IMG/VR virus record: IMGVR_UViG_3300021962_000238 | Span: 1-40,575 of that record | Length of the DNA stretch: 40,575 nt | Direction: 5' to 3' (one strand) | Origin: a virus | Part shown: piece after piece, positions 4,179 to 22,314 of the stretch | Layout: every line of letters starts with the position of its first letter | Position numbering within the stretch: the stretch's first letter is position 1 | Translations under genes and position numbers: made by a program | Notes under the pieces: model-generated | What the model was told of the DNA's origin: nothing | Databases searched by the model: none | Seen by the model: the letters and a program-made list of their open reading frames with translations, nothing else

Positions 4179-7100
4179 ATGACTAACTTTGAAGGCCCCA
4201 AGGACCGCGTTGCTCCCATTCGTCCCGATGAAGAGCTGAACGAAGAAACCGAAGTCCTGAATGCTGGGCAGGCTATCAGCCCGCAAGCTCAGGATCCTCA
4301 GCAGAAGAAGGCTCTGCCTTCGGTTCCTACTAGCGGTCAGGGTCCTGGCGTGCCGACTCCGGCACCTGCTCCAACTCCTGGGCCAGCTCCTACACCAGGA
4401 GGTGTTGATCTCGGAGGTCTTCGCGGCGTCATTTCAGGGAAGAAGGTTGCTGCTCCAGCCCTGCAGCCTCAGGGAGTTCAGGAGCCAAAGCCAACGCCGA
4501 CTGGGGTGTCCAACTCCGCGACTCGCGGCACGCCAAGGTTTGCGCAGCGTTTTGAAGAAGCTCTTCGCACAGAGCGCGTTCGCACCGCAATCGACAACGG
4601 CATCCCAATGTCGCAGTTGGATTCGATTGACATCCCGCTGGCTCGGCAGAAGGAGATTGAAGACTCGATCACCGGGGCGATGGCGGATACGGAGGACAAC
4701 TTCTTCGACACGTTTGCCAACTTCATGGGCGAACTTGGAGAAGGAACGATGGAGGCTGGCAAGACGGCGCTGATGACCGCGCCCGAAGCCCTGTTCTCGT
4801 GGGTTCCGAACGGGGCCACGAACGCAGCCAACTACGTCAACACCGCATCGGTCATGATGTCGGGCGATAAGGCCCGGATGGAGAACCTCCAGAAGCGTTG
4901 GGCTGCTCAGGAAACGCTGCGAGACGAAGCCGCTCTCAAGAAGATGGCTCCTGAGCAGATTCAGCAGCTCATCGCAGATTCTCAGCTTGAGACGACCGAG
5001 GCCGAGGAGTTTTTCACCGACACGACCGGCAAGTTGAGCGTCTATTCGCTTCTTCCCAAGGACACGCAGTTAGCGGTTCGCGCGCAGCAGGCGCTGAACC
5101 CGGTTGCCACCGCAGCCACGGAAGTCGCTGGCCAGATCGTTCAGTACGCTCCCACGCCGTGGGGTGGCGCAGTTGGAGCGGTCACCAAGACTGCAAGCGT
5201 GCCAGGTTTGTTGACGCGCACTGTGGAGAATCTCCTTAAGGCAGGAGTGCAAAAGGCTGTAGTCAAACCGTTCAGCGCATCCAAGTTCGGCGCTGGCCTC
5301 AATCGCATGATGGCAAGCGAGGCGTTCCGGCCGTTGCGTGCAGCAAAGGCAAGCCCGATGGGCAAGTTCCTGTCCAAGGTTGCCGATCTCAACATGACCG
5401 ACCTCGCAACCAGCGGGCTTTCGTCGGCTCTTGTTGACTCGCTGTTTGGCGATGCCAAGGCAACTGCCCAGGAGCGGGTGTGGAACGGCATGGTGATGGG
5501 CATGGTTGGATACACCGGCTACAAGGTCGCCGCCAACGTATCCAAGCTGTACTCCAACAAGTTCATCTTCGACAAGCTGCCAGAGGATGCTCGCAGGCAG
5601 ATTGCAAACGGCGACGACCTCATGAGGGTCGCCGTCAAGAACGGCGTTGGTCGCCTTCATCCCGTTGTAGCCAAGACCTTGAGCGTTGGCCTGGAATCTT
5701 TTGGCAACGCCTGGGTGGACACGCACGAACTGATGAAGTCGATGAGCGTGCTGTACAACAGCGACGAACACACCGACAAGGAGATTGAAGAAGCCAAGTC
5801 TCGCTTGGTTGGCATCGTCGGCGGCAGCTTTCTTGGGACGCTGTGGGGTCGCGTTGGCAACAGGCCGGTCTGGGCAGATTACGTCCAGAAGAACCCGGAG
5901 CTGGCTGACAACAAGCTGTACATGCAAGAGGTTGAAGCTCGATACGCAAAGCGTATGCAGGGCTACCAGGAAAACATTGCCAGGACCACGGAAGAGATTG
6001 CCGCGCTGCGCCGCAATATTGGCCTTGGCGCGAAGCCTGGCGAGATCAACATCGAGTACACGCGCTCCCTGGTAGGCGACATCGAACGCGCCATCGGCGT
6101 GAACGAATGGATGGAGTCGCAAGGCGCTGGCAAGGTTGGCGTTGCTCGACTCGTCAACTCAGCCCAGCAAGCTGCAGATCGCTACATGGATCTCGCCTTC
6201 TCCAGGGCGGTGCAGGGTGGCCCCACGGGCGAGACTCTTGCGGCAGCCAGGGAGCAGGGCATCAAGGACATCGACAACACCTTCACCGAGCTTTACCGCG
6301 AGATGGACGCGGAGCTTGGAGAGAAGGTTTCCAAGGGCATGTCGGCCGGAGAAGAGGCCAAGCTGCGTGAGCAGGGTGTGGCTGCACTGACCCTGGCTCG
6401 CGACAAGTCCAAGGCGCTGCTCGATGCCAACATCGACCGCGGCATCATGGAGCTGTTCAACAAGCACCAGCAGGCGCAGATGCAGCTTGCCGAGTCGCAG
6501 CGCGTCATCGATGCCAGCACGCAGGTCGCGCGCGAGAACATCCTTGGCACCGCCCTGAGCGGCATGACTCCCGAGCAGCGGTCTCGCCTTGGCTCCGAGG
6601 CGCTGGTTGGTCACCAGACCACGATCTTTGGCGCAGGTGCCAAGATGGTGGACCGCCTGTTCTCCACGCAGTGGCGGAACCAGTTCCAGGTGGAAGGCGT
6701 TGATCGCCCCTGGAGCGCCAAGAAGTTCAGCAACGAAGCCGAATCCAACATCGATGCTGCAGCGGCTAGCGCGACTGAGGAGGTCAACAGTCGCTACGAC
6801 CGGATGGAGAAGGAGAGCGGAGAAAACTTCCAGCCTCAGCGTGAAGCAGAGCTGCGCGCTGTGCAGGAATCTGCGTCTGCAGCCAAGGAGTTCTTCAACC
6901 AGTCGCTGCGCGATCAGCAGTCGGACATGCGCTCCAGGTGGGATCACGCTCGCGCGCAGATTGCCATCGCCCAGGGCGTGAACGTCGATCAGCTTGGCAA
7001 TGCTGGCACGATCAACACCAAGCTCGAAGAGCTGCGTGCGTTGAGGGCTGCCGAAACGGATCCGGCCAAGCGTCGGCAGATCGACGAAGAGATCAACAAG

Positions 7101-10100
7101 CAGAAGGATGCGTTGCGTGGTGCCGAACAGGCCCTGAAGCGGTTTGTAGATTCGGAGGACATGATTCGTTCGACGAGCATGGACGCTCTGAAGCAGATGC
7201 ATGATGAGGCCAACGAACGGCAAAAGGCATCTCACCAGCAGTGGCAAGCAGATCAGCAAGCTCGTTTGGAACGGGCCGAACAGATAAAGCTCTCAAACGA
7301 GAAGGCTTACGAGCGGGCCAAGATGGCCATGACTCAAGGTTTGCCGAGAGGCGAAGATGAAACCAAGGCGTTCACCGCCTTGACGAAGCACGGCGGATGG
7401 TTCGCCACGTTGCGCCATCCACAAACTGGTTTCATTCAGTACTACCCCAACGGCGGCGATCAGCGCCTGTTCGTGCGAGGGTCTGGCGACAACTTTGAAG
7501 TGATGATCAACAGGGATGTGCTAGACCTATTCCCTGACGACATCCCTGAATACTTGTCTCAAGCCAACGACGAGCTTTCGTCTGTTGCCAACAAGCTCGA
7601 CACGCAAGCCACGTTCTCGCTAACCGGGGATGCTGCGCACAAGCTCATCTCGGACATCAACTATCTGATGATGGCCAACCAGATGCGCGGTCATGCGACG
7701 TTTACGAGGAATGGCATCAAGCCGTTGCCTCCGTATGGCGGCGGCGTGTACGTCCTGGACGGCAAGAGCTACATCCGCGGCGCGGACGGCAAATACCGCA
7801 GCAAGTGGGCTGCAGCAGGAAATGCGCGCGAAGAGAAGATGTTTGATTCGACCGTCGTGGCCGAATCAATGGTGCGGCGCATCGACCAGTTGCAGCAGAC
7901 TTTGGCAAGCGAGCAGGATCCCAAGGTTCGCGAGAAGTTGACGGCGGACATTACCGCCATGAACGAAGCTCTAGCCAAGGAGCGGGCTGAAATCGCCAAG
8001 CGCCTGAGTGAGCCGGATAATATTTTCGTCAGCCACGATCCTGGCAAGTACGAGCTGCTGGATCGCCAGCTCAAGGACCCGACGACTTGGAACCGGCACT
8101 CGGAAGCCAACCCAATCGTCAAGCTGTGGATCAACTTCGTCACGCGCGACCTTCGCAACGTCGCGATGTCCGACGAGTCTTTGCTGTCGCCGTACATGGC
8201 CATCGAAGCTGCGATGGACATGGCCGCGCGCGGCCAAGAAGACGATCCTTTCGTGCTTGAGATGGTGAAGTTCCTGGAGTCCATTCCTGAGCCTGCTGAT
8301 GCTCTTCGCGAGAGCGGAATGGACGCCAGCGAGATCATGCATCGCCTTGCCATGGAGATGGGTGCCATCGGCATGGGCCGCGGCAATGCGGAAAGCAGCA
8401 TCGCCAAGATGACCAAGGCGGTTCAGGAGAACCAGGCCAAGATGGAGCAGGAGGGCCTGATCCGCAGAGCGGCCGAGGAAGGCAAGCAGCCGCCTCCCGA
8501 GGAGCCTCCGGCCGATGAGGGCGGGGAGCCTGTTGAACCCACGCCTAAGCCCACTGAGGGTCCTGTGGCGGCCGAAGAGCGGCCCCCTGTCGAAGCCGAG
8601 CCTGAGCCAGCCCCGCGCCCGGCTGAGGCCAAGCCAACCAAGAAGCGCACTCGCAAGGTCAAGACGCAGCAGGGCCAGGAGTTGCCCTTTACGTCGATGA
8701 CCGACCTGGTGGATGCCAAGCCGATGGAGTCGTCGATGGAAGATCGCCCGGCCTGGGAGATGGACATCAACGAGTTCATGCAGCAGAACCTCAAGGGCGA
8801 GGTCGATCCTGAAGCCGAACAGGAAATGACCAAGTTCTACTACCAGCGCGTGCTCGCCGCGGCAGCGGAAGGCAAGCCGGTTAACCCTGAGTACGTTCGG
8901 GATGCCGAGGCGATGGTGGAGTCGGGCGACATCGAGGCCCCAGCGGGCTACAAGGCTGCAAAAAAAAAGACGGTAGTCGGCCTGGAAGCCGAGCAAGGCC
9001 CCGAGCTAACCCCCGAAGAACGAAAGAGAAGGGCTAGCTACCCAATCGCTCAACACAACGTCACCTCCATGCTGGTTCGCCAGTTTAAAGACAAGGGTCT
9101 TTACACTGGCGATCTGAAAGGCGGCGACATTAATCTGACCCATAAGGGCAGAGATCTTCACGACGTTTTGTATGACATGCAGATAGATGCCGAAGATCCT
9201 AATAATCAGGACACCGGCAAGGACATCAGCATGCGCGTCGAAGTGGAAGTTGAAGCAGGCGATAATCGATTCAAAGAAGAAGACATCTTTATTGAGCGGA
9301 TTAATGGCCAGTGGTCGATGCGTTTTGCTAGCGATGCCAAAGGAAAAGAAAGAGGTATTTTTGGCACGCAAAGGCCAGTTGACGATTTAACTGCTGACAA
9401 TATTGCTCATAAAGTCATCCAGCCAGCAGTAGAAAAGATTCTTGGCATTAAGGATAACGCAAGGCTTGCTCGTCGCCCATTAACGCAAATGGTTGTCGTT
9501 CCTGAGGGGGGAAACATCAACCAGATGCTTAAGATTTTAAAGGACGAAGGTCATCCAATCAGAGAGGTCGCCAAAGACAACAAGGACCAGAAAGTCGTAT
9601 CGCTTGTTGACGTTGTTCAAGAGATTGGAACGGCTAACGACGATGGATCTGATGTTAGTTTTGAGATTGTAAACACAAACAGTAATGAATGGAGCGGCGG
9701 CAAAGTCAAAACGCATATATTTCCCCGCGTATTTTTGGAACGCAAGAACGGCCAGTGGTCGGTCAGAAACCTGCAAGGCAAGGTTATTCCTGTCGCCATC
9801 GGAGGCGAAGCTCCTGCCAAGGCCCCGGCGGCAAAGCCAGGCAAGAAGGGCCGCGTCATCAAGGGCAGCCCTGGCGACCCCGAGCTTGGTGGCACGATCA
9901 TCTTCGACCCGGTCGAGTGGAACCGTGCTGTGCGCAGGACGGCGGCCAAAGCCAAGGAGAGCATCTCCTATGCCTCAAACCGCCTGGTGCAGTTCTTCGG
10001 CAGCGATGCTGAGTTCATCAAGAACATCGACGCCGATACCGGCCAGAGGATGGAGCAACTGCACGATGATGACCGTCGCGTGCGTGGCGAGCTGCACTAC

Positions 10101-12986
10101 CAGGCGGTGAAGATCATCCGCGACCTGGACGCTTTGCCCAACCGAGCCGAGGTGCGCGACTTCGCTCAGGAGCGCGTGCTCGATCCGAACTCCAACTCGT
10201 TCACGACTCGCCTGCAGATGGCCGTCGAAGGCATACCGTTCCCTGATGGCGCAACCCCTCCTAAGGGGTTCCAAATCATGGTCGATGGCTACCGCAAGAT
10301 GTTCTACGAGAGCGGTCGGTTCCTGCAGGAGGCCGGTCTCGTCACGAAGTTTGCGGATGGACGACTTGATCGGTTCACGGCGGATCCAAACCGTCATCGC
10401 TTCATCCGCATGATGACGCCCGAGTTCTACGACATCATTCGTGGATCGGAAAATGACCCGCGGTTCACGGCCCTCGTCGATGCGCTGGCAAACGGCAACG
10501 CTCGCACGCCAGAGCAAACGCGCGAGAGGCTGAGAAGCAAACTTGGTCGCGAACCAACTGACGCTGAGGTAACTGAAGCTCGCGACAAGCAGATTGCTGG
10601 TTTGAAGCAAAGCATCGTAGACGCTTTCAAGCCAGAGCTGAAGCAATCTACAGATGAGGCCATGCGCTCAGGCCGCGTGGAGTACAAGCCCGTTGAAAGA
10701 ACTATTGCTGCTGACTTCGCGCGCACGCTGAGGTTCTTCCCGACAACCATCAGGATTCCCGACAAGTTTGGAGGCCCGGATAGCAACGTCAACATCCTGG
10801 CTGACGATTTCGATTCGATTATCAGCCGCATGGCTGACGAGACTGGCCTGCGTTACGCAGTTGTCAACAACTTCGGCAACGACATCAGCATCGATCAAGC
10901 TCGACAGATTTCCGAACGAGACCCGTCTTTGCGCGAAGTGCTCTCCAGCTCGACCGTGTTGAGCAAGTTCGACCAAGCCATCAAGCGCCAAGGGCTTACT
11001 CGCTATTCCAAGCAAAATCTGGAGAACGTGCTTCGTCGAGTGCAGGACATTTCTGCGGCTTCGTTTGTTGATGCAAGAGGCAAGGTTAGTCGCTTCCTGA
11101 TGGCTGCTGAAGGCGAGCGCCGCATGGCCGAGCTGACGATTTCATCCGTTGCCAACCTTGTGGAACCTCTTGGTTCGCTGCCTGGCTTTGTGGGCAGCAA
11201 GCGCACGATGGAAGCGTTGAAGCGCACGTTGACCAGCCTTGGTCAGTATGCAGCAGATTCAGCGTTAGATGCCAAGAACGGCACGCGAACCGCGCTTTTC
11301 GAGGTGCGTGACGCTGCCATTCGCAACGGCGCGGTGATGACCGGCATCTCAACTCGCCTGTTCGACACCAACCGATTCTCCGGCAAGACGATGGAAGTGC
11401 TTCGCGCCATCGTTTCCGGCGGCTTCGAGTACACGCAGCAGTTTGCCGAGATCTGGGCTGCTGAGACCGGACGGGTGACCGTCGATTCGTGGAAGCAAGG
11501 CAAGTTCCTCAACATCGATAAGTTCATGCTGAGAAACCTTGGCTTCAACGATGCGCAGATCAACGCCTTCAAGACTGGCAACTTCTCGCCGGACCTTGAG
11601 AAGGCGTTCATCGGTCGCCTGTCGGGCGCGGCCACGGCCACGCAGACGACAACCAGGCGCAGCTACGTCATGGGCAACAAGTGGATCAACCTGGCGTTGC
11701 CATTCAACCGCTACTACCTGGGACGCATGAAGTTCGTGGCTCGCATGATGATCGAAGTGGCCAAGAGCAAGAATCAGGAAGATGCTCTTGGTGCAACACA
11801 TGCTGTTGCATCGCACTATTTTGGAACGGCTGTTACCGGAGCATTGGCCGTGTTCCTTATGCAGTCGCTTTATACGCTAAGTCCAAAAGAAGTAGCTTTG
11901 AAGATGGCTCGCGAAGCTGTTGGCAATCCTAGCGATGACCTTGTGACGCGGATTAACAACCTCGTTGGCTACTCAGCGAAAATGTATGTTTCGCAGACCT
12001 TTGCCGGTCCAGGCATCGGTGCCGTTGGATCTCTGTTCGATCCATCCCAGCCTGTGCAGTCTGGAGCCAGGGCCGTATTGCCGTTCGACTACTGGAACTC
12101 CATCAAGGATGCACTCAACAGCAGCGGTCCTTACCGTGGCATGAACTTCTGGGAGAAGCTATCCGTGTCCATGGAGCGAGCCACGCCCGCTGCCAAAATG
12201 GTCAACCGGCTTGTCTCGTCCTTCACAGTTGACGAGTTGGCCAACGATGTGGCTCGCATCGTCAACGATGTGAACGAGCTGGAGCGCGAGAACAGGGAGA
12301 CGTACCTGATCACTGGCGCCATCCCCGAGAAGAAGGTCGAGTTCCACAGGGCTGTCAGGGACCTCATGAAGGAGTTCCGCCGAGGCATGAAGCCAGACAG
12401 CCCCGAGGTGATGGAGAAGATAGACGAAGCCCTCAAGGTTGGCGTTGGCGAAGACCTGCGAGCCGCCATTCGCAGCATGAAGAACTTGGAAGGCCAAGAC
12501 ATTCCCGTTGATCTGCGCAAGAAAGTTGTAGACCGCATCGGCGTAGAGAACTTCCAAAAGCTGCAGGCTTACGATGATGCTATCGATGACCTGGCCGACA
12601 GCGTGCCTCGCTACAAGGGCAAGCTGCCTGACGAGCGAGCTGACTTCAAGAATCGCCTGGACGAAGCCGCTGTGCTTTGGGAGCTGAAGGATTTCACCAG
12701 CGTGGACGACATCAAGAAGGACGCTCAGTTCCTCGCCGTCCGCGATCTGGTCAGAGTCAAGGACCCCAACGGTCGCATCTCAGCAGACGCACAGGATGCG
12801 TTGAGGCGTCTCTCCAGGAAGCTGGCTGCATTCCCTGATGCGTTGCCTGCTGCCATCGGGGAGCAGGAGGCCAAGAAGATGGTTCGCCAAGGCTTGCGAA
12901 TCCACCTGATCTACAACGCTCTGCGAAAGGACGCATCCGATGCCGCCGAGGTTGAACTTGATCGGCAGGATGCGTCCAAGAAGTGA
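4179..12986 (+). CDS. giant (2935 aa) multidomain internal/ejection-type protein
   Basis: Covers over a fifth of the window. Visible parts: Pro-rich N-terminus (residues 57-75), Gly/Ala hydrophobic stretches (about 307-356, 436-460, 543-562), long helical/coiled-coil segments (about 590-1110), a globular part (about 1065-1240), a Pro/Glu linker (about 1430-1500), a lower-GC tandem duplication (about 1620-1870), and a long helical C-terminal region (about 1905-2935) with LALPFNRYY near 2503 and a membrane-like segment near 2550-2570. Giant proteins in this gene position, after two smaller internal proteins, are commonly ejected virion proteins; large-polyvalent-type proteins have similar architecture. 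I see no catalytic motif for transglycosylase, protease or RNA polymerase. It stops back-to-back with ssb on the other strand. Confidence 0.7.
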   Translation: MTNFEGPKDRVAPIRPDEELNEETEVLNAGQAISPQAQDPQQKKALPSVPTSGQGPGVPTPAPAPTPGPAPTPGGVDLGGLRGVISGKKVAAPALQPQGVQEPKPTPTGVSNSATRGTPRFAQRFEEALRTERVRTAIDNGIPMSQLDSIDIPLARQKEIEDSITGAMADTEDNFFDTFANFMGELGEGTMEAGKTALMTAPEALFSWVPNGATNAANYVNTASVMMSGDKARMENLQKRWAAQETLRDEAALKKMAPEQIQQLIADSQLETTEAEEFFTDTTGKLSVYSLLPKDTQLAVRAQQALNPVATAATEVAGQIVQYAPTPWGGAVGAVTKTASVPGLLTRTVENLLKAGVQKAVVKPFSASKFGAGLNRMMASEAFRPLRAAKASPMGKFLSKVADLNMTDLATSGLSSALVDSLFGDAKATAQERVWNGMVMGMVGYTGYKVAANVSKLYSNKFIFDKLPEDARRQIANGDDLMRVAVKNGVGRLHPVVAKTLSVGLESFGNAWVDTHELMKSMSVLYNSDEHTDKEIEEAKSRLVGIVGGSFLGTLWGRVGNRPVWADYVQKNPELADNKLYMQEVEARYAKRMQGYQENIARTTEEIAALRRNIGLGAKPGEINIEYTRSLVGDIERAIGVNEWMESQGAGKVGVARLVNSAQQAADRYMDLAFSRAVQGGPTGETLAAAREQGIKDIDNTFTELYREMDAELGEKVSKGMSAGEEAKLREQGVAALTLARDKSKALLDANIDRGIMELFNKHQQAQMQLAESQRVIDASTQVARENILGTALSGMTPEQRSRLGSEALVGHQTTIFGAGAKMVDRLFSTQWRNQFQVEGVDRPWSAKKFSNEAESNIDAAAASATEEVNSRYDRMEKESGENFQPQREAELRAVQESASAAKEFFNQSLRDQQSDMRSRWDHARAQIAIAQGVNVDQLGNAGTINTKLEELRALRAAETDPAKRRQIDEEINKQKDALRGAEQALKRFVDSEDMIRSTSMDALKQMHDEANERQKASHQQWQADQQARLERAEQIKLSNEKAYERAKMAMTQGLPRGEDETKAFTALTKHGGWFATLRHPQTGFIQYYPNGGDQRLFVRGSGDNFEVMINRDVLDLFPDDIPEYLSQANDELSSVANKLDTQATFSLTGDAAHKLISDINYLMMANQMRGHATFTRNGIKPLPPYGGGVYVLDGKSYIRGADGKYRSKWAAAGNAREEKMFDSTVVAESMVRRIDQLQQTLASEQDPKVREKLTADITAMNEALAKERAEIAKRLSEPDNIFVSHDPGKYELLDRQLKDPTTWNRHSEANPIVKLWINFVTRDLRNVAMSDESLLSPYMAIEAAMDMAARGQEDDPFVLEMVKFLESIPEPADALRESGMDASEIMHRLAMEMGAIGMGRGNAESSIAKMTKAVQENQAKMEQEGLIRRAAEEGKQPPPEEPPADEGGEPVEPTPKPTEGPVAAEERPPVEAEPEPAPRPAEAKPTKKRTRKVKTQQGQELPFTSMTDLVDAKPMESSMEDRPAWEMDINEFMQQNLKGEVDPEAEQEMTKFYYQRVLAAAAEGKPVNPEYVRDAEAMVESGDIEAPAGYKAAKKKTVVGLEAEQGPELTPEERKRRASYPIAQHNVTSMLVRQFKDKGLYTGDLKGGDINLTHKGRDLHDVLYDMQIDAEDPNNQDTGKDISMRVEVEVEAGDNRFKEEDIFIERINGQWSMRFASDAKGKERGIFGTQRPVDDLTADNIAHKVIQPAVEKILGIKDNARLARRPLTQMVVVPEGGNINQMLKILKDEGHPIREVAKDNKDQKVVSLVDVVQEIGTANDDGSDVSFEIVNTNSNEWSGGKVKTHIFPRVFLERKNGQWSVRNLQGKVIPVAIGGEAPAKAPAAKPGKKGRVIKGSPGDPELGGTIIFDPVEWNRAVRRTAAKAKESISYASNRLVQFFGSDAEFIKNIDADTGQRMEQLHDDDRRVRGELHYQAVKIIRDLDALPNRAEVRDFAQERVLDPNSNSFTTRLQMAVEGIPFPDGATPPKGFQIMVDGYRKMFYESGRFLQEAGLVTKFADGRLDRFTADPNRHRFIRMMTPEFYDIIRGSENDPRFTALVDALANGNARTPEQTRERLRSKLGREPTDAEVTEARDKQIAGLKQSIVDAFKPELKQSTDEAMRSGRVEYKPVERTIAADFARTLRFFPTTIRIPDKFGGPDSNVNILADDFDSIISRMADETGLRYAVVNNFGNDISIDQARQISERDPSLREVLSSSTVLSKFDQAIKRQGLTRYSKQNLENVLRRVQDISAASFVDARGKVSRFLMAAEGERRMAELTISSVANLVEPLGSLPGFVGSKRTMEALKRTLTSLGQYAADSALDAKNGTRTALFEVRDAAIRNGAVMTGISTRLFDTNRFSGKTMEVLRAIVSGGFEYTQQFAEIWAAETGRVTVDSWKQGKFLNIDKFMLRNLGFNDAQINAFKTGNFSPDLEKAFIGRLSGAATATQTTTRRSYVMGNKWINLALPFNRYYLGRMKFVARMMIEVAKSKNQEDALGATHAVASHYFGTAVTGALAVFLMQSLYTLSPKEVALKMAREAVGNPSDDLVTRINNLVGYSAKMYVSQTFAGPGIGAVGSLFDPSQPVQSGARAVLPFDYWNSIKDALNSSGPYRGMNFWEKLSVSMERATPAAKMVNRLVSSFTVDELANDVARIVNDVNELERENRETYLITGAIPEKKVEFHRAVRDLMKEFRRGMKPDSPEVMEKIDEALKVGVGEDLRAAIRSMKNLEGQDIPVDLRKKVVDRIGVENFQKLQAYDDAIDDLADSVPRYKGKLPDERADFKNRLDEAAVLWELKDFTSVDDIKKDAQFLAVRDLVRVKDPNGRISADAQDALRRLSRKLAAFPDALPAAIGEQEAKKMVRQGLRIHLIYNALRKDASDAAEVELDRQDASKK

Positions 12987-13364
12987 TCAGAACGGAGCTT
13001 CGTCGAGGTTGATGGCCGCCTTCTTCGGAGGAGGCGCGTCATCACCGCCGCGTTCGGGCTTCATCAGCAGGCTGGCCCGCTCGACAACGAGCGACAGCTT
13101 GCTGCGCTTCTCGCCGTCCTTCTCCCAGGTGTCCTGCTCGATGCGGCCCTGCAGGTACACCGGGTTGCCGCGCTTTGCACCCTTCAAGTCCTCAGCCGAG
13201 TAGCTGAACGCCCTGAAGTCGATGAAGTGCGGCTTCTTCTCCTCGCCGACCTTGGTGTTGTAGGCCACCGTTCCCGAGGCCCAGAACGTACCCTTCTGCG
13301 AGGTACGGAACTCAGGATCCTTGACCAAGTGTCCAAGGATCACAACGTGACAGTAGTTAGGCAT
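12987..13364 (-). CDS. ssb: single-stranded DNA-binding protein
   Basis: Binds ssDNA during replication and recombination. The OB-fold family pattern is clear: NYCHVVILGHLVKDPEFR at the N-terminus, a VYLQGRIEQDTWEKDGEKR strand pair, and an acidic C-terminal tip ending DEAPF, which in bacterial SSBs docks partner proteins. The ATG at 13364 is preferred because GAGGA lies 9 nt upstream; an ATG at 13373 sits directly on that GAGGA. 125 residues, shorter than typical bacterial SSB (about 160-180), mainly in the linker. Last gene of the leftward cassette; it overlaps the nuclease gene upstream, and its stop abuts the giant gene's stop. Confidence 0.93.
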   Translation of the reverse strand: MPNYCHVVILGHLVKDPEFRTSQKGTFWASGTVAYNTKVGEEKKPHFIDFRAFSYSAEDLKGAKRGNPVYLQGRIEQDTWEKDGEKRSKLSLVVERASLLMKPERGGDDAPPPKKAAINLDEAPF

Positions 13365-13698
13365 CTGATTCATTCCTCAGTTCTTGCGCGCGAACTAGTT
13401 CAAGGAAGTCGCCTGCGCGCATAACGACTACCCAATCTTGGTTGTTCTTCTTCCAGGCGACGTAGGGTCGGCTGCCGTCCGGCATCTCGTCCTGCGCCTG
13501 CTTGAGCGCCCCGTGGATGTTCAGCACGGACCTGAACTTGACCTCAGGGTGCCATCCTGCTGGCCCACCGACAACGTCGGGGGAATCGGGGCTGCCAGCG
13601 TACTGCTGGCCACGCCTGGCATCGGGCCAGCCGGTGGCGCGCAGCACATCGCGCCACATCAGCTCGCCCCTCTTGCCCTTCTGTCGGCTGTTGACCAT
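13357..13698 (-). CDS. PD-(D/E)XK nuclease, Holliday-junction-resolvase-like
   Basis: 113 residues. An N-terminal SRQKGKRGELMWRDVLR helix supplies a conserved Glu (E12), then SPDVVG gives Asp41 and HPEVKF gives E52-x-K54, together the E...D...ExK active site of small Hjc-type resolvases and related phage nucleases. It likely cleaves branched DNA arising in recombination or packaging. ATG at 13698 is chosen for its GGAGG 8 nt upstream and TGATG overlap with the preceding gene; a GTG at 13713 would start within it. It sits between an unknown gene and ssb in a recombination cassette, which fits. Substrate is inferred from family and context. Confidence 0.8.
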   Translation of the reverse strand: MVNSRQKGKRGELMWRDVLRATGWPDARRGQQYAGSPDSPDVVGGPAGWHPEVKFRSVLNIHGALKQAQDEMPDGSRPYVAWKKNNQDWVVVMRAGDFLELVRAQELRNESDA

Positions 13699-14003
13699 CA
13701 GTTGAGCCTCCACTGCTCGTCGGCCTCTCGCTGCTCCTGCTGTGTTTCGGCCTCTGGGCCTTCCACCTCACGGAACATGGGATAGCCGTCGCTGTCGATG
13801 CTCTCGATCTGCAACACCTCGCGATCCCACTTGTCGATGAGGTCGCGCGTGTTGCGCATCATGGCAAGGATCTTCAGGATCCTGATGGCATCGTTGTCCT
13901 CGATGCCGCCAGGGAAGTCGCGCACGATCCTGAGAGCATCCTGCACCCTTATCTCTTCCGGCTCGACGCTGTCGATTGGAAACATCTCGTCAAAGTGCGT
14001 CAC
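13698..14003 (-). CDS. hypothetical protein, 101 aa
   Basis: GTG start overlaps the stop of the gene before it (GTGA), and its own TGA overlaps the resolvase ATG by one base. The product is acidic, helical and without cysteines or membrane segments; a NDAIRILKILAMMRNTRDLIDKW helix dominates the middle and the tail is Glu/Gln-rich. I do not recognise a family. Context suggests an accessory factor of DNA recombination or replication; nothing more is shown. Confidence 0.65.
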   Translation of the reverse strand: MTHFDEMFPIDSVEPEEIRVQDALRIVRDFPGGIEDNDAIRILKILAMMRNTRDLIDKWDREVLQIESIDSDGYPMFREVEGPEAETQQEQREADEQWRLN

Positions 14004-14161
14004 TTACTCACCTCCTTCTCCAACTCCACGACCTGCAGGCGCAGGTAGTCGATCATGTCCAGCAGCTCACGCACCGCCGAGAGGTGAAGCTCGACGGTGT
14101 TGCCACCGCGAGCCTCGACCTCTTCGCACAGGTGCCTGACCGTTTCGGTCATGTGCTTCAC
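14000..14161 (-). CDS. small helical protein, 53 aa
   Basis: Begins at a GTG overlapping the nuclease stop (GTGA), with GGAGG about 12 nt upstream; an internal ATG at 14152 would give 50 residues. The product is one or two amphipathic helices (TVELHLSAVRELLDMIDYLRL then QVVELEKEVSK) that could form a coiled coil. No known family. It is flanked by overlapping genes on both sides, which argues that it is translated. Confidence 0.55.
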   Translation of the reverse strand: MKHMTETVRHLCEEVEARGGNTVELHLSAVRELLDMIDYLRLQVVELEKEVSK

Positions 14162-14934
14162 GATGGCACCGTCCCTCCGTGATCCTTTTCGCACTGTTCC
14201 CAGTACGCACACCAGCGTTTGCTGCACATCATGTTCTGGCGATTGGGCAGGAAGTCGCCACTCTGCACGCTGGCGTTGATCTGCCTCTTCGCACCGACAA
14301 GCTGCGAGACCGCGCCGCGCACATCCCTGGGCGTGACAGTCGTCTGGATGACCTGCGTCTTGGGCACCTTGGTCTTGACCGCAACATCCCACTGCACCTG
14401 GTTGGTGCCGACCGCCTCAGCGTAGATTGGCACCTGCAGGCTGCGCTGAATGTCGGCCTCGGACATCGACTTGGCCTTGGTCTTCAGCTCATGCACCACT
14501 TTGTGGTTGTCGCCCACCTGCGCGACCGTGTCCACGATGCCGTGGATCTGCGTCCCATCATCAGCGATGAGGTTTGCAGGCACCTGGACGCCCACAGGCT
14601 GCACGGTGACGGCAATGTCGTTACGCCACAAGGTGGCCAAGGTCGTGCCTTGGTCGAGCAGCTTGGCAGGATCCTCGTCCTCCCACAGCTCGACCTGCAC
14701 CTTGGCCTTGTCCCACTCTGCAGCGAACAGGTCGGCCGTGTCGTTGGCCGTCTCGCCCGTGACCATCTTCAGGCTGTAGACGGCGTTGGACATGTTGTCG
14801 AACGCCTTCCCGAACGCCAGGGCGGCGCTCGGGGGAGACTTCAGGCCATCAACATACCTGTACTTCCACTGGGCCTGGCAACGCAGCCACATCGCGGCCT
14901 GCGATGGGCTGATGTACTTGGGGATCTCAGACAC
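14158..14934 (-). CDS. RecB/Cas4-family Fe-S exonuclease
   Basis: 258 residues. Motifs of the RecB-type PD-(D/E)XK fold are visible: SPSQAAMWLRC helix, G-I-V-D135, E149-L-K151, and the QxxxY motif (Q167 to Y171). Four cysteines follow the iron-staple pattern of AddB and Cas4: C20 near the N-terminus and C237, C242, C248 at the C-terminus, so a 4Fe-4S cluster is likely. The His usual in motif I is not seen (GKAFD in its place). Start GTG has GGAGG 6 nt upstream and lies 8 nt inside the previous gene. Likely partner of the ERF annealing protein: it would generate single-stranded ends for annealing. Confidence 0.85.
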   Translation of the reverse strand: MSEIPKYISPSQAAMWLRCQAQWKYRYVDGLKSPPSAALAFGKAFDNMSNAVYSLKMVTGETANDTADLFAAEWDKAKVQVELWEDEDPAKLLDQGTTLATLWRNDIAVTVQPVGVQVPANLIADDGTQIHGIVDTVAQVGDNHKVVHELKTKAKSMSEADIQRSLQVPIYAEAVGTNQVQWDVAVKTKVPKTQVIQTTVTPRDVRGAVSQLVGAKRQINASVQSGDFLPNRQNMMCSKRWCAYWEQCEKDHGGTVPS

Positions 14935-15319
14935 TGGATGCCTCCTTGATCTTCTTGGCCAGCTCATCGATGAGGTTCTGGCTCGACATCTGATCCATCT
15001 CGGCCTCGATCTCTTCATCAACACACATGCCGATGAAGCGCCTGTTCTCGACATGCTTGGTCGCCAGCTCCTGGGCGGTCTGGGCGTATTCCCACAGCGC
15101 CCAGTACTCGTAGCTGGACTGCGCGAGATGCATCTCGAACAACCAGGTGACAGCAACGGCGCACTCGCGCGGCTTCATGCCGCCATCCATGGCCGCCTGC
15201 CGAAACAGACGCTGCAGAGCAAACCGGATCACCGACATGCGCTTGCGCGCGGCCAATGCCTGACGCTCCCAGCTCTCCGACAGCACGACCTCCTTGGTTT
15301 CCACGTTGGTCTCGGTCAC
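14927..15319 (-). CDS. hypothetical protein, 130 aa
   Basis: GTG start overlaps the ERF stop (GTGA) with GGAGG 6 nt upstream. The product is all-helical in appearance (ERQALAARKRMSVIRFALQRL, then WLFEMHLAQSSYEYWALWEYAQTAQ), acidic at the C-terminus, and without recognisable motifs. It sits between the annealing protein and the exonuclease, so it may be a small partner of that pair. Family unknown to me. Confidence 0.65.
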   Translation of the reverse strand: MTETNVETKEVVLSESWERQALAARKRMSVIRFALQRLFRQAAMDGGMKPRECAVAVTWLFEMHLAQSSYEYWALWEYAQTAQELATKHVENRRFIGMCVDEEIEAEMDQMSSQNLIDELAKKIKEASSV

Positions 15320-16559: not shown

Positions 16560-17387
16560 ATGGAAGCAAACGCAGTACTGCAGACGTTGGCCGAGGCCCT
16601 TTCCAAGAACATCAAGGTATCTGCCCGGTCGGTGGCCGAGGCTTTGGACTACAACGAGCTGGCGCAGGAGGTCGCTAGCGAGCTGGCCTACAACGACATC
16701 GCTAGCGAGCTGGACTACGACGAGCTGGCCTCCCGCGTGGACCTCGACGATCTTGCGCGCAAGGTTGATCTCAGCGACTTAGCGGCCGAGTGGGACCTGT
16801 GCGAAGTGGCCGATGCCATCAACCCAGCGAGGGTCGCGATTGAACTCAACCTTGAGGCCGTGGCCGCCAAGCTGCCCTGTGAGACCATCGCGCAGCACTT
16901 CAGCAACCAGAACCCGACCCCGTTGCGCGAGCTGGAGAGGCGGCTGGCCGAGGTCGAGGCGACGATGGAGATGCGTGCCGCTGCCAGCCAGCCTGCGAAG
17001 GACGCTGCGGCCCGTGCGGGCGAGGACCTGCTGTCCGAGGTCTACAGCGCGAACATGGTCTTCGTTGTCGAGGAGGGCCGGTTCGTGTCGAAGGCCAGCG
17101 TGCTGGAGAAGCGCGTCGATCAGGGGCTGCGGGAGCTGGAGGCACGGATCAATGAGCAGGACGGCGTGCTGGGGCAGATCCTGACCGAGCAGCGCAACAT
17201 GCAGATGCGCATCGACACGGCCGCGCCCATCACTGGCCAGCGCATGGCCGCCCGCTTCGAGACCGAGGACCTGCGCGAGATGCTGACCGACTGTCGCCTG
17301 CGCCTTGAAGCGGTCGAGAGAAGCACGCGCGCACTCTACGAGGCTTTCCTGCAGGGCTACGCCAAGGCCATGGAGGCACGCCCGTGA
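16560..17387 (+). CDS. nonapeptide-repeat coiled-coil protein, 275 aa
   Basis: The ATG at 16560 follows GGAGACGCAG. Residues about 40-115 hold at least eight consecutive nine-residue repeats with consensus [DN][LY]x[DE][LVI]Axx[LVIW], e.g. DYDELASRV, DLDDLARKV, DLSDLAAEW, DLCEVADAI. Two neighbouring repeats still share near-identical DNA 27 bp apart (GCTAGC at 16674 and 16701). The C-terminal half is a charged coiled coil (LRELERRLAEVEATMEMR; EKRVDQGLRELEARINEQ). I do not recognise a family; such solenoid-like repeats suggest a scaffold or protein-binding role. It is first of a two-gene rightward unit. Confidence 0.7.
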   Translation: MEANAVLQTLAEALSKNIKVSARSVAEALDYNELAQEVASELAYNDIASELDYDELASRVDLDDLARKVDLSDLAAEWDLCEVADAINPARVAIELNLEAVAAKLPCETIAQHFSNQNPTPLRELERRLAEVEATMEMRAAASQPAKDAAARAGEDLLSEVYSANMVFVVEEGRFVSKASVLEKRVDQGLRELEARINEQDGVLGQILTEQRNMQMRIDTAAPITGQRMAARFETEDLREMLTDCRLRLEAVERSTRALYEAFLQGYAKAMEARP

Positions 17388-20422: not shown

Positions 20423-20450
20423 TTGACTGTGTTCTGTGTGTGGCTATGTT
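20423..20450 (+). promoter_or_regulatory. sigma70-like early promoter
   Basis: TTGACT (20423-20428), 16 nt, TATGTT (20445-20450). The expected start of transcription, about 7 nt beyond the -10, falls on or next to the ATG at 20457, which has no ribosome-binding site. It probably drives the early operon 20457-22314. Confidence 0.55.
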
Positions 20451-20456
20451 GTTGGC

Positions 20457-20654
20457 ATGGACAACAAGAAGCCAAGGATGGAAGCTGCTCAGTCTGGTCA
20501 GAGGAAGTTCCACGGGAAACCGTGCCGTAAGTGCGGAAGCACTGAACGGTACGTCTGCTCTAGCAACTGCATCGCCTGCCAGAAGGCGCAATCCAACGTC
20601 TACCACACCAAGGTCCGCGAGGCCCTCAAGCAGGCGGAGGCACAGCAACAGTGA
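20457..20654 (+). CDS. small zinc-finger protein (CxxC...CxxC), 65 aa
   Basis: ATG at 20457, followed by basic KKPRMEAAQSG and then KPCRKCGSTERYVCSSNCIACQKA, a zinc-finger pattern of two CxxC knuckles found in a widespread family of tiny phage proteins. The C-terminal part is a basic helix (YHTKVREALKQAEAQQQ). No Shine-Dalgarno is visible, and the promoter's -10 ends only 6 nt upstream. It overlaps the initiator gene's GTG (GTGA). Probably nucleic-acid binding; function unknown. Confidence 0.75.
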   Translation: MDNKKPRMEAAQSGQRKFHGKPCRKCGSTERYVCSSNCIACQKAQSNVYHTKVREALKQAEAQQQ

Positions 20655-21361
20655 CCTTGGTCAAGAACTGGGACAAGTTCCAACACTACGGCAACCGCCG
20701 ACCAACCTGGATCAAGCTGTACCGTAGCTTGCTCGATGACCTCGATTGGCACCAACTCGCAGGAGATGATGCCAAGCACCTGGTCATGATCTGGCTACTC
20801 GCAGCAGAGGATGACGGTAGGTTGCCGCCTACAAAGCAGCTTGCATTCAGGCTGCGCATCAAGGAGCAAGAGGCTGAGAAGCTGTTAGTCAGGCTGGAGC
20901 AATGGGTTACGCATGATGCTAGCAACGTGCTAGCAGACGGCTATCAAGATGCTAGCAAGACGCTAGCAGATGGCTATCAGGATGCTAGCTCAGAAGAGAG
21001 TAAGAGTAAGAGTAAGAATAGAGAGACCGCTCCGCGGTCTTCTGTGGATCGCCCTGAAGGTGTCTCAGAGGAAACGTGGAACAGCTACATAGCCATCAGG
21101 AAGGCGAAGCGTGCGCCCATGACGGCAACAGCTCTCAGCCAACTCAGGGCGGAGGCGACCAAGGCCGGGTGGTCCCTGGAGGCCGTGCTGGCCGAATGCT
21201 GCGTGCGCGGCTGGCAAGGCTTCAAGGCTGACTGGGTCAAGGGCAAGGCCGCCACTGGCGCGTTCTCGAAGCCCACAGCCCACATGCCCAACATGCCTCT
21301 TGGAACCGCGGCCTGCAACTGCGACGGTTGTACGGAGTACAGAAAGAAGCGCGCCGTATGA
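20651..21361 (+). CDS. replication initiator, phage O-like
   Basis: 236 residues from a GTG overlapping the previous stop. The N-terminal domain (VKNWDKFQHYGNRRPTWIKLYRSLLDD, then DAKHLVMIWLLAAEDDGRLP and a winged-helix-like part) matches phage O-type or replisome-organiser DNA-binding domains. A low-complexity hinge follows (about 88-115, with 11-residue repeats LADGYQDAS and a Ser/Lys tract), then a C-terminal helical domain (RKAKRAPMTATALSQL, RGWQGFKADW) and a small cysteine-containing end. The hinge DNA carries an iteron array (20918-20994), so the gene probably contains its own origin, as lambda O does. It should recruit host helicase, since none is encoded here. Confidence 0.8.
   Translation: MTLVKNWDKFQHYGNRRPTWIKLYRSLLDDLDWHQLAGDDAKHLVMIWLLAAEDDGRLPPTKQLAFRLRIKEQEAEKLLVRLEQWVTHDASNVLADGYQDASKTLADGYQDASSEESKSKSKNRETAPRSSVDRPEGVSEETWNSYIAIRKAKRAPMTATALSQLRAEATKAGWSLEAVLAECCVRGWQGFKADWVKGKAATGAFSKPTAHMPNMPLGTAACNCDGCTEYRKKRAV
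20918..20994. repeat. seven 11-bp iterons: predicted replication origin
   Basis: GCTAGC or GCTATC begins at 20918, 20929, 20940, 20951, 20962, 20973 and 20984, exactly 11 bp apart. The pattern is also a 33-bp unit repeated twice plus a partial third. Consensus of the unit is GCTAKCARRAY. The array lies inside the initiator gene and is followed by a purine-rich, AT-richer tract (20993-21023) with AGTAAG repeated, then a perfect AGACCGC/GCGGTCT hairpin (21024-21040). This matches the plan of lambda ori. Confidence 0.75.
21024..21040. repeat. inverted repeat beside the iterons
   Basis: AGACCGC and GCGGTCT pair perfectly around a 3-nt loop, directly after the purine-rich tract. It could be part of the origin. 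Confidence 0.5.
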
Positions 21362-21475: not shown

Positions 21476-21844
21476 ATGCGACATGCCATGGCCGTCTTGC
21501 TCTCGACCGTCAGCGCCGCTGCGCAGAACCTTAGCGTGGCGGCTGTCTCTGATGGAGTCTCAGACCTGCAGGTGCGTTTCGCGCGCATCTCGGAGCTTGA
21601 GCTGCGCGTGATCTTTCCAGAAAGCCCCATGGCCGTGGTCGAGATCAGCGCCGGGCCAACCATGATTTGGTCGTGGATCATCCAGCCCTACCAAGGCCGC
21701 GACGGCTTCATCGAGCGGCCCAGCAACCAACACCCAGCCGAGCTGCGCATCCCGGTGCGGCTGATCCCTCCTGGAACGTGGCACCTGCGCGTGCTGACCA
21801 TCTATGGGCCGTCTGACACCATCGAGCTACGCACCTATCCGTGA
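21476..21844 (+). CDS. putative secreted protein, 122 aa
   Basis: The N-terminus (MRHAMAVLLSTVSAAAQN) resembles a signal peptide with possible cleavage after SAAA. The rest is beta-rich (LQVRFARISELELRVIF, MAVVEISAGPTMIWSWI, AELRIPVRLIPPGTWHLRVLTIYG), like a small beta-sandwich. No ribosome-binding site of note. It lies between a membrane peptide and the sigma gene, so a periplasmic or envelope role during early infection (for example exclusion) is possible but unproved. Confidence 0.6.
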   Translation: MRHAMAVLLSTVSAAAQNLSVAAVSDGVSDLQVRFARISELELRVIFPESPMAVVEISAGPTMIWSWIIQPYQGRDGFIERPSNQHPAELRIPVRLIPPGTWHLRVLTIYGPSDTIELRTYP

Positions 21845-22314
21845 GCGACGAGCAGTACGCCTTCCTGCGTAGAGTTTGCCGCAAGGCGCTGCGCCGATGG
21901 AACTGCTCTAAGGACTGGTCGCTCGATGAGTTCACCTCCTGGGGCTGGTGGGGCCTGGCGTGCGCCGAGCGCACCTTCGACGAGGCCAAGGGTTCCTGGC
22001 ACCCTTACGCCGCGTTCAAAATCAGGGGGGCCATCCTGGACAACCTCAAGCAAGGCTGCTGGAAGCTGCACGCCCGCTGGACGGACGATGAACAGCCGGT
22101 GTACCAGCCCAACCCATGGCACGAAGCCTTGTACGACCTGACCAAGACCTTGAACTTGCCGCAGCGCCAGGCGGTGTGCTGGTATTACCGAGACGGCTTG
22201 AGCCTCGCCGACATCGGCAAGCTCCAAGGTGTCACAGAATCTGCCGTCAGCTACAGACTCAAGGACGCGCGCGAAAAGATCCGACAGCTCGTCCTTGACG
22301 CCAAAAACATCTAG
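21841..22314 (+). CDS. phage sigma-like factor (regions 2 and 4)
   Basis: 157 residues, GTG start overlapping the previous stop. Residues 10-72 match sigma region 2 (LRRWNCSKDWSLDEFTSWGWWGL; ERTFDEAKGSWHPYAAFKIRGAILDNLKQ), and 104-150 match region 4 (LPQRQAVCWYYRDGLSLADIGKLQGVTESAVSYRLKDAREKI) with the helix-turn-helix at about 119-142. Region 3 is absent, as in small group-3/4 sigmas. It should bind host core RNA polymerase and redirect it. It is the last gene of the early operon, just before the terminator at 22406 and the late genes, the natural place for a late-switch factor. Confidence 0.82.
   Translation: MSDEQYAFLRRVCRKALRRWNCSKDWSLDEFTSWGWWGLACAERTFDEAKGSWHPYAAFKIRGAILDNLKQGCWKLHARWTDDEQPVYQPNPWHEALYDLTKTLNLPQRQAVCWYYRDGLSLADIGKLQGVTESAVSYRLKDAREKIRQLVLDAKNI

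Follow-up and report, generated by a model that had tools for sequence, protein, structure and literature searches.

The lambda origin is laid out as iterons, an A+T-richer purine tract and an inverted repeat (PMC4488673, PMC5043065), and dimers of the O protein bind the palindromic iterons and open a 40-bp A+T-rich region on supercoiled DNA (PMC5043065). For the P335 lactococcal replisome organizers, direct repeats in the rep gene serve as the origin (PMC8965321), and oriL of SPP1, with direct repeats and an AT-rich region, lies within gene 38 and is bound by gp38 (PMC6316719). The RepA_N initiators of plasmids and PLEs read semi-palindromic iterons through a DnaD-like winged-helix N-terminal domain, and PLEs exchange this domain together with the origin as one module; in PLEs the origin is non-coding, and RepA_N iterons are longer than those reported below (PMC7145576, PMC8263062).

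The stretch analysed here, referred to as the window, is the 40,575-base virus record IMGVR_UViG_3300021962_000238 (positions 1–40,575). It encodes an O-like replication initiator of 236 aa with a GTG start (20651–21361, plus strand), which matches phrog_678 of the PHROGs library (‘replication initiation O-like’; residues 115–200, E 3.1e-20) and phrog_26426 (‘replication protein’; residues 4–147, E 6.8e-17). Exact sequence matching places GCTAGC cores within this gene at 20918, 20929, 20951, 20962 and 20984, and GCTATC cores at 20940 and 20973, with a core-to-core pitch of exactly 11 bp across all seven; each of the phased starts listed in the original prediction was recovered to the base. Pattern matching and a synonymous-shuffle null define the array as seven 11-bp iterons of the form nnnGCTAKCAR (20915–20991, plus strand), the seventh unit deviating from CAR at its end. 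TRF describes the same array with period 33 (2.3 copies, 88% match) and period 11 (7.2 copies, 69%), the 33-bp higher-order unit comprising three 11-mers. The paired pattern GCTAKCAN4GCTAKC is unique to the array within the record, and its backwards control gave 0 matches. On sequence grounds, we put at roughly 80% the probability that the array acts as a replication origin embedded in the gene for its own initiator.

The order proposed earlier by analogy with lambda is present in full, with an N-terminal domain, iterons, a strand-asymmetric purine tract and a C-terminal domain. The N-terminal domain (codons 1–88, 20651–20914, plus strand; NWxxFQH[YF]..WIKL) is winged-helix-like in its model and is the proposed iteron reader. 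As had been anticipated, the iterons are followed on their 3′ side by a purine-rich, A+T-richer tract (20992–21026, plus strand), a candidate unwinding element with 31 purines in 35 positions and 66% A+T in a window of 60.7% GC, and then by a perfect hairpin with 7-bp arms and a 3-nt loop (21024–21040, no strand assigned) that overlaps the end of the tract. The O-like C-terminal part (codons 115–200, 20993–21250, plus strand) matches phrog_6451 (‘primosomal protein’) in addition to phrog_678, and is predicted to serve in helicase-loader or primosome docking.

The locus resembles lambda O and its origin in that the protein is O-like, its gene contains the iterons in the stretch that separates the binding domain from the C-terminal domain, and after the palindromic iterons come a strand-asymmetric, A+T-richer purine tract and an inverted repeat. 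The difference lies in the iterons: lambda has four of 18–19 bp, with starts 20, 24 and 23 bp apart, whereas the window family has palindromic cores of 6–8 bp at 11 bp, usually in three or four copies, with seven in the window. The pitch is tighter than lambda's, as originally claimed. Since the iteron length and spacing of lambda are not found here, we place the locus outside the lambda O family, as a variant among the systems that carry their origin in the initiator gene. In a lag test, which compares each gene with its own synonymous shuffles (protein and codon usage kept), the lambda gene O control gave 44, 20, 23 and 24 as its top four lags, corresponding to the annotated iteron starts.

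Among the P335 organizers, Tuc2009 rep (orf16), annotated ‘contains origin of replication’, gave Z 3.2 at lag 11 and 4.5 at lag 22 in the same test, while its top lags (20, 10 and 5) came from a G/A-rich tract. It resembles the window in that four AACCA-type units stand 11 bp apart ahead of this short-period tract; however, these repeats are not the window core, and the likeness rests on repeat layout. TP901-1 rep (ORF13), whose gene is reported to include the origin repeats of that phage, was considered as an 11-bp precedent and rejected, as it had neither an 11- nor a 22-bp lag signal. SPP1 gp38/oriL is comparable in having direct repeats and an AT-rich region positioned inside the initiator gene, although the host group and protein differ and the comparison is by description.

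The lambda O sequence of events is a natural model, by analogy, for the window origin. The winged-helix-like N-terminal domain would bind the palindromic core YG[C/A]TA[G/T]CA, probably as a dimer in which each subunit contacts one half-site TG[C/A]T, and seven sites one helical turn apart would align every bound protein along a single face of the helix. As an 11-bp pitch leaves scant room for separate lambda-type dimers, a tighter complex, wrapped or filament-like, is likely. Such a complex could strain and open the adjacent purine-rich tract, upon which the O-like C-terminal part would recruit a helicase loader or helicase.

The strongest competing explanation is that the array is mainly a binding site through which the initiator is autoregulated or titrated, with the origin elsewhere. 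Binding by itself would look the same at an operator and at an origin, and there is a promoter-like site upstream (20423–20450), though at chance level (1 found versus 0.6 expected). The hairpin at 21024–21040 scores as terminator-like on the minus strand, again only at chance level, and both scans were set aside as evidence. Against an operator, the array sits approximately 270 bp inside the gene, with an unwinding-like tract and the O-like C-terminal domain after it, a layout that matches the lambda origin. We consider this explanation unlikely. The GC-skew signal that had been expected at the site was absent: the cumulative profile has no extremum at the array and peaks near 13 kb.

A second alternative would locate selection in the linker peptide, with the DNA repeat as a consequence. 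The peptide unit encoded by the array is the 11-residue DASxxLADGYQ; an 11-residue repeat had been described correctly, but the LADGYQDAS quoted for it has nine residues. The 33-bp unit does encode this repeat, and the peptide pattern D(D/A)(I/S)..(I/L)(S/A)..YQ is common to many relatives. However, 11 is not a multiple of three, and cores 1–7 fall in frames 0, 2, 1, 0, 2, 1 and 0, with one DNA word encoding Ala-Ser, (x)Leu-Ala and Gly-Tyr-Gln by turns. The presence of cores in all three reading frames identifies the repeat as DNA-level and not as a protein repeat in codon register. Synonymous recoding also destroys the pattern: among 20,000 synonymous-codon shuffles of the window gene, the longest GCTAKC chain at 11 bp was four (five shuffles), and seven never occurred. 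The linker is, in addition, predicted to be disordered. Selection on the peptide is thus highly improbable as the source of the repeat, and the earlier suggestion that DNA constraint shapes the linker is supported by a core that is independent of frame and a peptide that shifts with the core (DDI..IS versus DAS..LA). Under the origin reading, the linker peptide would be a by-product of that constraint.

Relatives of the initiator are encoded in 253 of 267 candidate stretches, the viral relatives being those among the matches listed. Among the matches listed for the N-terminal-domain query, 117 of 122 sources yielded genes; removing redundancy left 85, and the test covered 84 of these, one gene below 300 nt being dropped. 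ORFs with non-ACGT letters were excluded, and ORFs cut by a contig end, along with shorter genes, were left out of one gene set. The original prediction stood or fell with whether relatives with the same protein keep the periodicity in their DNA, and they do: 11-bp chains of at least two, three and four exact G[AC]TA[GT]C cores are present in 68, 40 and 7 of the 84 non-redundant relatives, against means of 4.1, 0.65 and 0.05 in synonymous shuffles. The remaining 16 of the 84 have no chain of at least two exact cores. Adjacent cores up to 45 bp apart are spaced by exactly 11 bp in 139 of 182 cases.

The lag test gave a mean Z of 3.08 at lag 11 for the 84 genes (47 with Z>3) and of 3.21 for 75 genes with the N-terminal domain that we term type A (41 with Z>3), two overlapping sets made with different redundancy cut-offs. 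Other odd lags stayed near zero in the 84 genes and, from 5 to 43, had Z between −0.12 and 0.69 in the type-A genes; raised even lags in the 84 genes were attributed to the GA-dinucleotide tracts that come after the arrays. For 288 neighbouring control ORFs, the mean Z at lag 11 was −0.07, with four above 3. By these sequence measures (three frames, 11-bp pitch, excess over the synonymous null and retention in relatives), the comparison shows an array maintained as DNA.

The commonest core among relatives is GATATC, which places the window in a GCTAGC minority; the hybrid cores GCTATC and GATAGC also occur. The 220 distinct GATATC-class units are distributed over the three frames as 66, 98 and 56. 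With one end mismatch allowed, copy number is three or four in 71 and 61 of 146 relatives, respectively, and, together with the 33-bp unit, this suggests that a recent duplication enlarged the seven-copy window array. That likely duplication, and the excess of copies over the usual number, would also fit neutral slippage, in which an 11- or 33-bp unit is duplicated in tandem without function. Yet the core is conserved among relatives' units while the spacer bases vary (a comparison that is partly circular for the core columns, as units were chosen by the core pattern), the pitch is kept in diverged genes and the motif changes together with residue 13. Functionless slippage is accordingly very unlikely.

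Genes of the GCTAGC class also carry cores in their N-terminal-domain codons, 55 sites in 24 genes where synonymous shuffles predict 12.6. Many of these sites are separated by 11, 21 or 22 bp, and the origin may reach further upstream in this class. The corresponding count for the GATATC class shows no excess (20 cores versus 20.1 expected in 122 genes).

GA tracts come after the arrays in relatives too, and among 37 genes with a chain of at least three cores and a dense tract, the commonest offset of the tract is 13 bp past the last core. Just 21 of 84 relatives have a purine tract denser than in every one of 20 synonymous shuffles, which indicates that part of the tract stems from the protein sequence; we did not retain the tract as a case of DNA-level constraint, the signal being weak. 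Inverted repeats within 120 bp past the array were present in 22 of 68 relatives, against 5.2 in mononucleotide shuffles. Hairpin conservation among relatives is mild, and this null ignores coding.

In the full-length AF2 model of the window protein, the N-terminal domain is ordered, the C-terminal part is helical (helices 140–152, 159–172, 176–185 and 194–200) and the linker that joins them is of low confidence. Linker segments with pLDDT <50 fall within residues 97–126, which the iterons and tract encode. Modelled alone, the N-terminal domain reached a pLDDT of 89.6 and shows a small β-hairpin (residues 11–13 and 20–22) followed by a winged-helix-like core. Its best VIA-align matches are winged-helix proteins, among them RepA_N initiators, the DnaD N-terminal domain, LexA and MntR; all are tied at Z 5–6, every VIA-align Z is below 8, and the matches are not decisive. 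Foldseek returned no match below E 0.001 for either model. A PDB sequence search with the N-terminal profile gave two matches (E 0.44–0.48), which were set aside, and four Pfam matches to the window protein (E 0.03–0.39) were below cut-offs and judged meaningless.

The matches to RepA_N proteins (pSK41, pTZ2162 and PLE RepA) have Z scores of 5.1–5.8 to 4pql, 4pt7, 5kbj and 4pta; we take 4pql and 5kbj to be RepA_N-type initiators. 4PTA and 4PT7 are described as such in PMC7145576. The RepA_N Pfam domain had no match in the window protein at E up to 1, and the array lies inside the gene, unlike the longer iterons and non-coding PLE origin of that group. Going by the model, RepA_N would be the nearest structural idea for the window protein, though the protein does not match its Pfam profile.

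In relatives, the gene after the initiator is annotated as a replicative helicase (MW202640) or a DnaC-like loader (phiPLPE). In the window, the next three scanned ORFs, at 21476 (searched against PHROGs), 21841 and 22378 (Pfam), had no helicase or loader match, the libraries differing by ORF. A partition centromere of the ParR/parC type, in which 11-bp repeats are known and which the one-turn pitch and array form resemble, is barely credible: the C-terminal domain is O-like, relatives have a helicase or loader gene directly after the initiator, and the scanned ORFs, a subset of the window's genes for ParM too, included no partition gene. The model is winged-helix-like and its listed matches include no ribbon-helix-helix protein, though this fold is not thereby excluded.

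We then considered the distribution of arrays over domain architectures in a non-redundant set of 198 genes, either O-like or type A. Of the 75 genes with a type-A N-terminal domain, 66 carry the G[AC]TA[GT]C array, versus none of 123 with other N-terminal domains, and in type-A genes it is present whether the C-terminal domain is shared (17 of 19) or not (49 of 56). Two pairs of loci illustrate the pattern. L003 and L036 are identical at 92 of 95 positions in their C-terminal parts and have unrelated N-terminal domains; L003 has a GCTAGC array and L036 a different repeat. L050 and L080 share a C-terminal part (94 of 98) and a 7-bp AACCAAY tract, while their upstream repeats differ. Taken together, the counts and these pairs indicate that the iterons travel with the N-terminal domain.

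At lag 11, the 96 DUF1376-type O-like genes reached a mean Z of 2.59, with 37 of them above 3; at lag 7 (mean Z 3.12, with 62 above 3) they showed another array, of 7 bp. DUF1376 loci whose C-terminal domain is O-like, L050, L057 and L065 among them, have 11-bp CGTTCAACG arrays with 7-bp AACCAAY repeats after them. The phased DNA arrays in its genes point to DUF1376 as a putative origin-binding domain. The eight HTH_36-type genes had Z>3 at lag 22 in six cases and at lag 17 in five. L029, L055 and L062 are O-like genes of this type, for which the class periodicity is 22 bp and 17 bp; L055 and L062 match Pfam HTH_36, and L055 itself contains an 11-bp repeat. The 19 genes with other N-terminal domains showed a weaker signal at lag 11 (mean Z 1.71, four with Z>3). 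Given the lag signals in DUF1376 and HTH_36 genes, phased arrays in initiator genes are not confined to the window's family.

A group of proteins of approximately 100–108 aa (L166–L169, L172 and L174–L177) consists of scarcely more than the type-A N-terminal domain. They are encoded in genomes of the Massilia group, along with Noviherbaspirillum and Janthinobacterium. Most carry one GCTAGC near the end, and they are perhaps stand-alone origin binders or split initiators.

Sequence comparison shows the array to be linked to the N-terminal domain, with a core that covaries with residue 13 of that domain. In the window, codon 13 is TAC, Tyr (20687–20689, plus strand), and both class counts and tree contrasts bear on it. 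In a 68-sequence alignment, of which 64 sequences were classed (18 Tyr, 44 Phe and two unread), the two core classes split without exception at residue 13. This discovery set is contained in an extension to 166 unique genes, 146 of them classed by their array, in which residue 13 is Phe in 122 of 122 GATATC genes (codons TTC/TTT) and Tyr in 24 of 24 GCTAGC genes (TAC/TAT), counts that come from related sequences with iterons and codon 13 linked in one gene. The 20 unclassed genes comprise 12 with Tyr, seven with Phe and one unread; nine of the 12 with Tyr encode the short Massilia-group proteins, most with the single GCTAGC. Residue 13 is the only column of the N-terminal profile that separates both classes perfectly, residue 81 being next best. 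FQHF occurs with GATATC in Xanthomonas phage PBR31, Limnohabitans phage DC33 and the environmental record MW202640, and FQHY with GCTAGC in Iodobacter phage phiPLPE.

On a 104-gene codon tree (252 codon columns, codon 13 left out), core and residue 13 each changed six times. The best tree yielded six independent contrasts, of which three fell on well-supported branches and all three were concordant (sign test p 0.25); an earlier 68-protein tree had five and five changes and one supported contrast. Support for the contrasts is limited.

It is an open question by what route an initiator and its origin can alter their specificity jointly and stay functional. In this family a single short gene contains both partners, there are two natural specificity classes and one residue separates all 146 classed genes, so the question can be tested with just two small proteins and a pair of short DNAs. 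The pattern suggests that protein and start site may evolve as lock and key within a single gene. The specificity switch would be a one-base change (TAY/TTY) approximately 230 bp upstream of the origin, and the one-turn pitch would let initiators form a continuous helical filament instead of discrete lambda-type dimers. Arrays of 11 or 22 bp under the unrelated DUF1376 and HTH_36 domains suggest that this pitch is a convergent requirement of O-like initiators. Taken as one proposal, that Tyr or Phe at residue 13 sets the origin spelling as TGCTAGCA or TGATATCA, that the filament is continuous and that the pitch is convergent, these ideas are tentative and somewhat doubtful as a set. The titles and abstract openings listed in literature searches name no 11-bp GATATC/GCTAGC array, residue-13 switch or DUF1376 origin repeats. 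Comparing lags with those of synonymous shuffles can also serve to look for concealed origins in initiator genes, among them genes whose sole annotation at present is DUF1376 or hypothetical protein.

Several further features were noted. The initiator gene of MW202640.1 (L259; 3004–3633) is unannotated and lies between an annotated ‘homing endonuclease’ and the ‘replicative helicase’. The 39-kb record of Limnohabitans phage DC33 (L258, PQ492659.1), which has an O-like initiator gene, carries Inoviridae in its taxonomy line, apparently a mislabel. Rfam and tRNA scans of the window gave no matches. Between its initiator and terminase genes, the window encodes a sigma-70 region 4 protein (21841–22314, plus strand; Pfam Sigma70_r4_2, E 4.8e-08), possibly a phage sigma-like late regulator. 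A leftward recombination block (12987–15156, minus strand) with SSB, a RusA-like resolvase and a PD-(D/E)XK exonuclease runs opposite to the initiator gene in a lambdoid-style layout. A single open frame of 2935 aa (4179–12986, plus strand) takes up about one-fifth of the record, and a 27-bp tandem repeat (16672–16723; 1.9 copies, 92%) contains two GCTAGC cores 27 bp apart.
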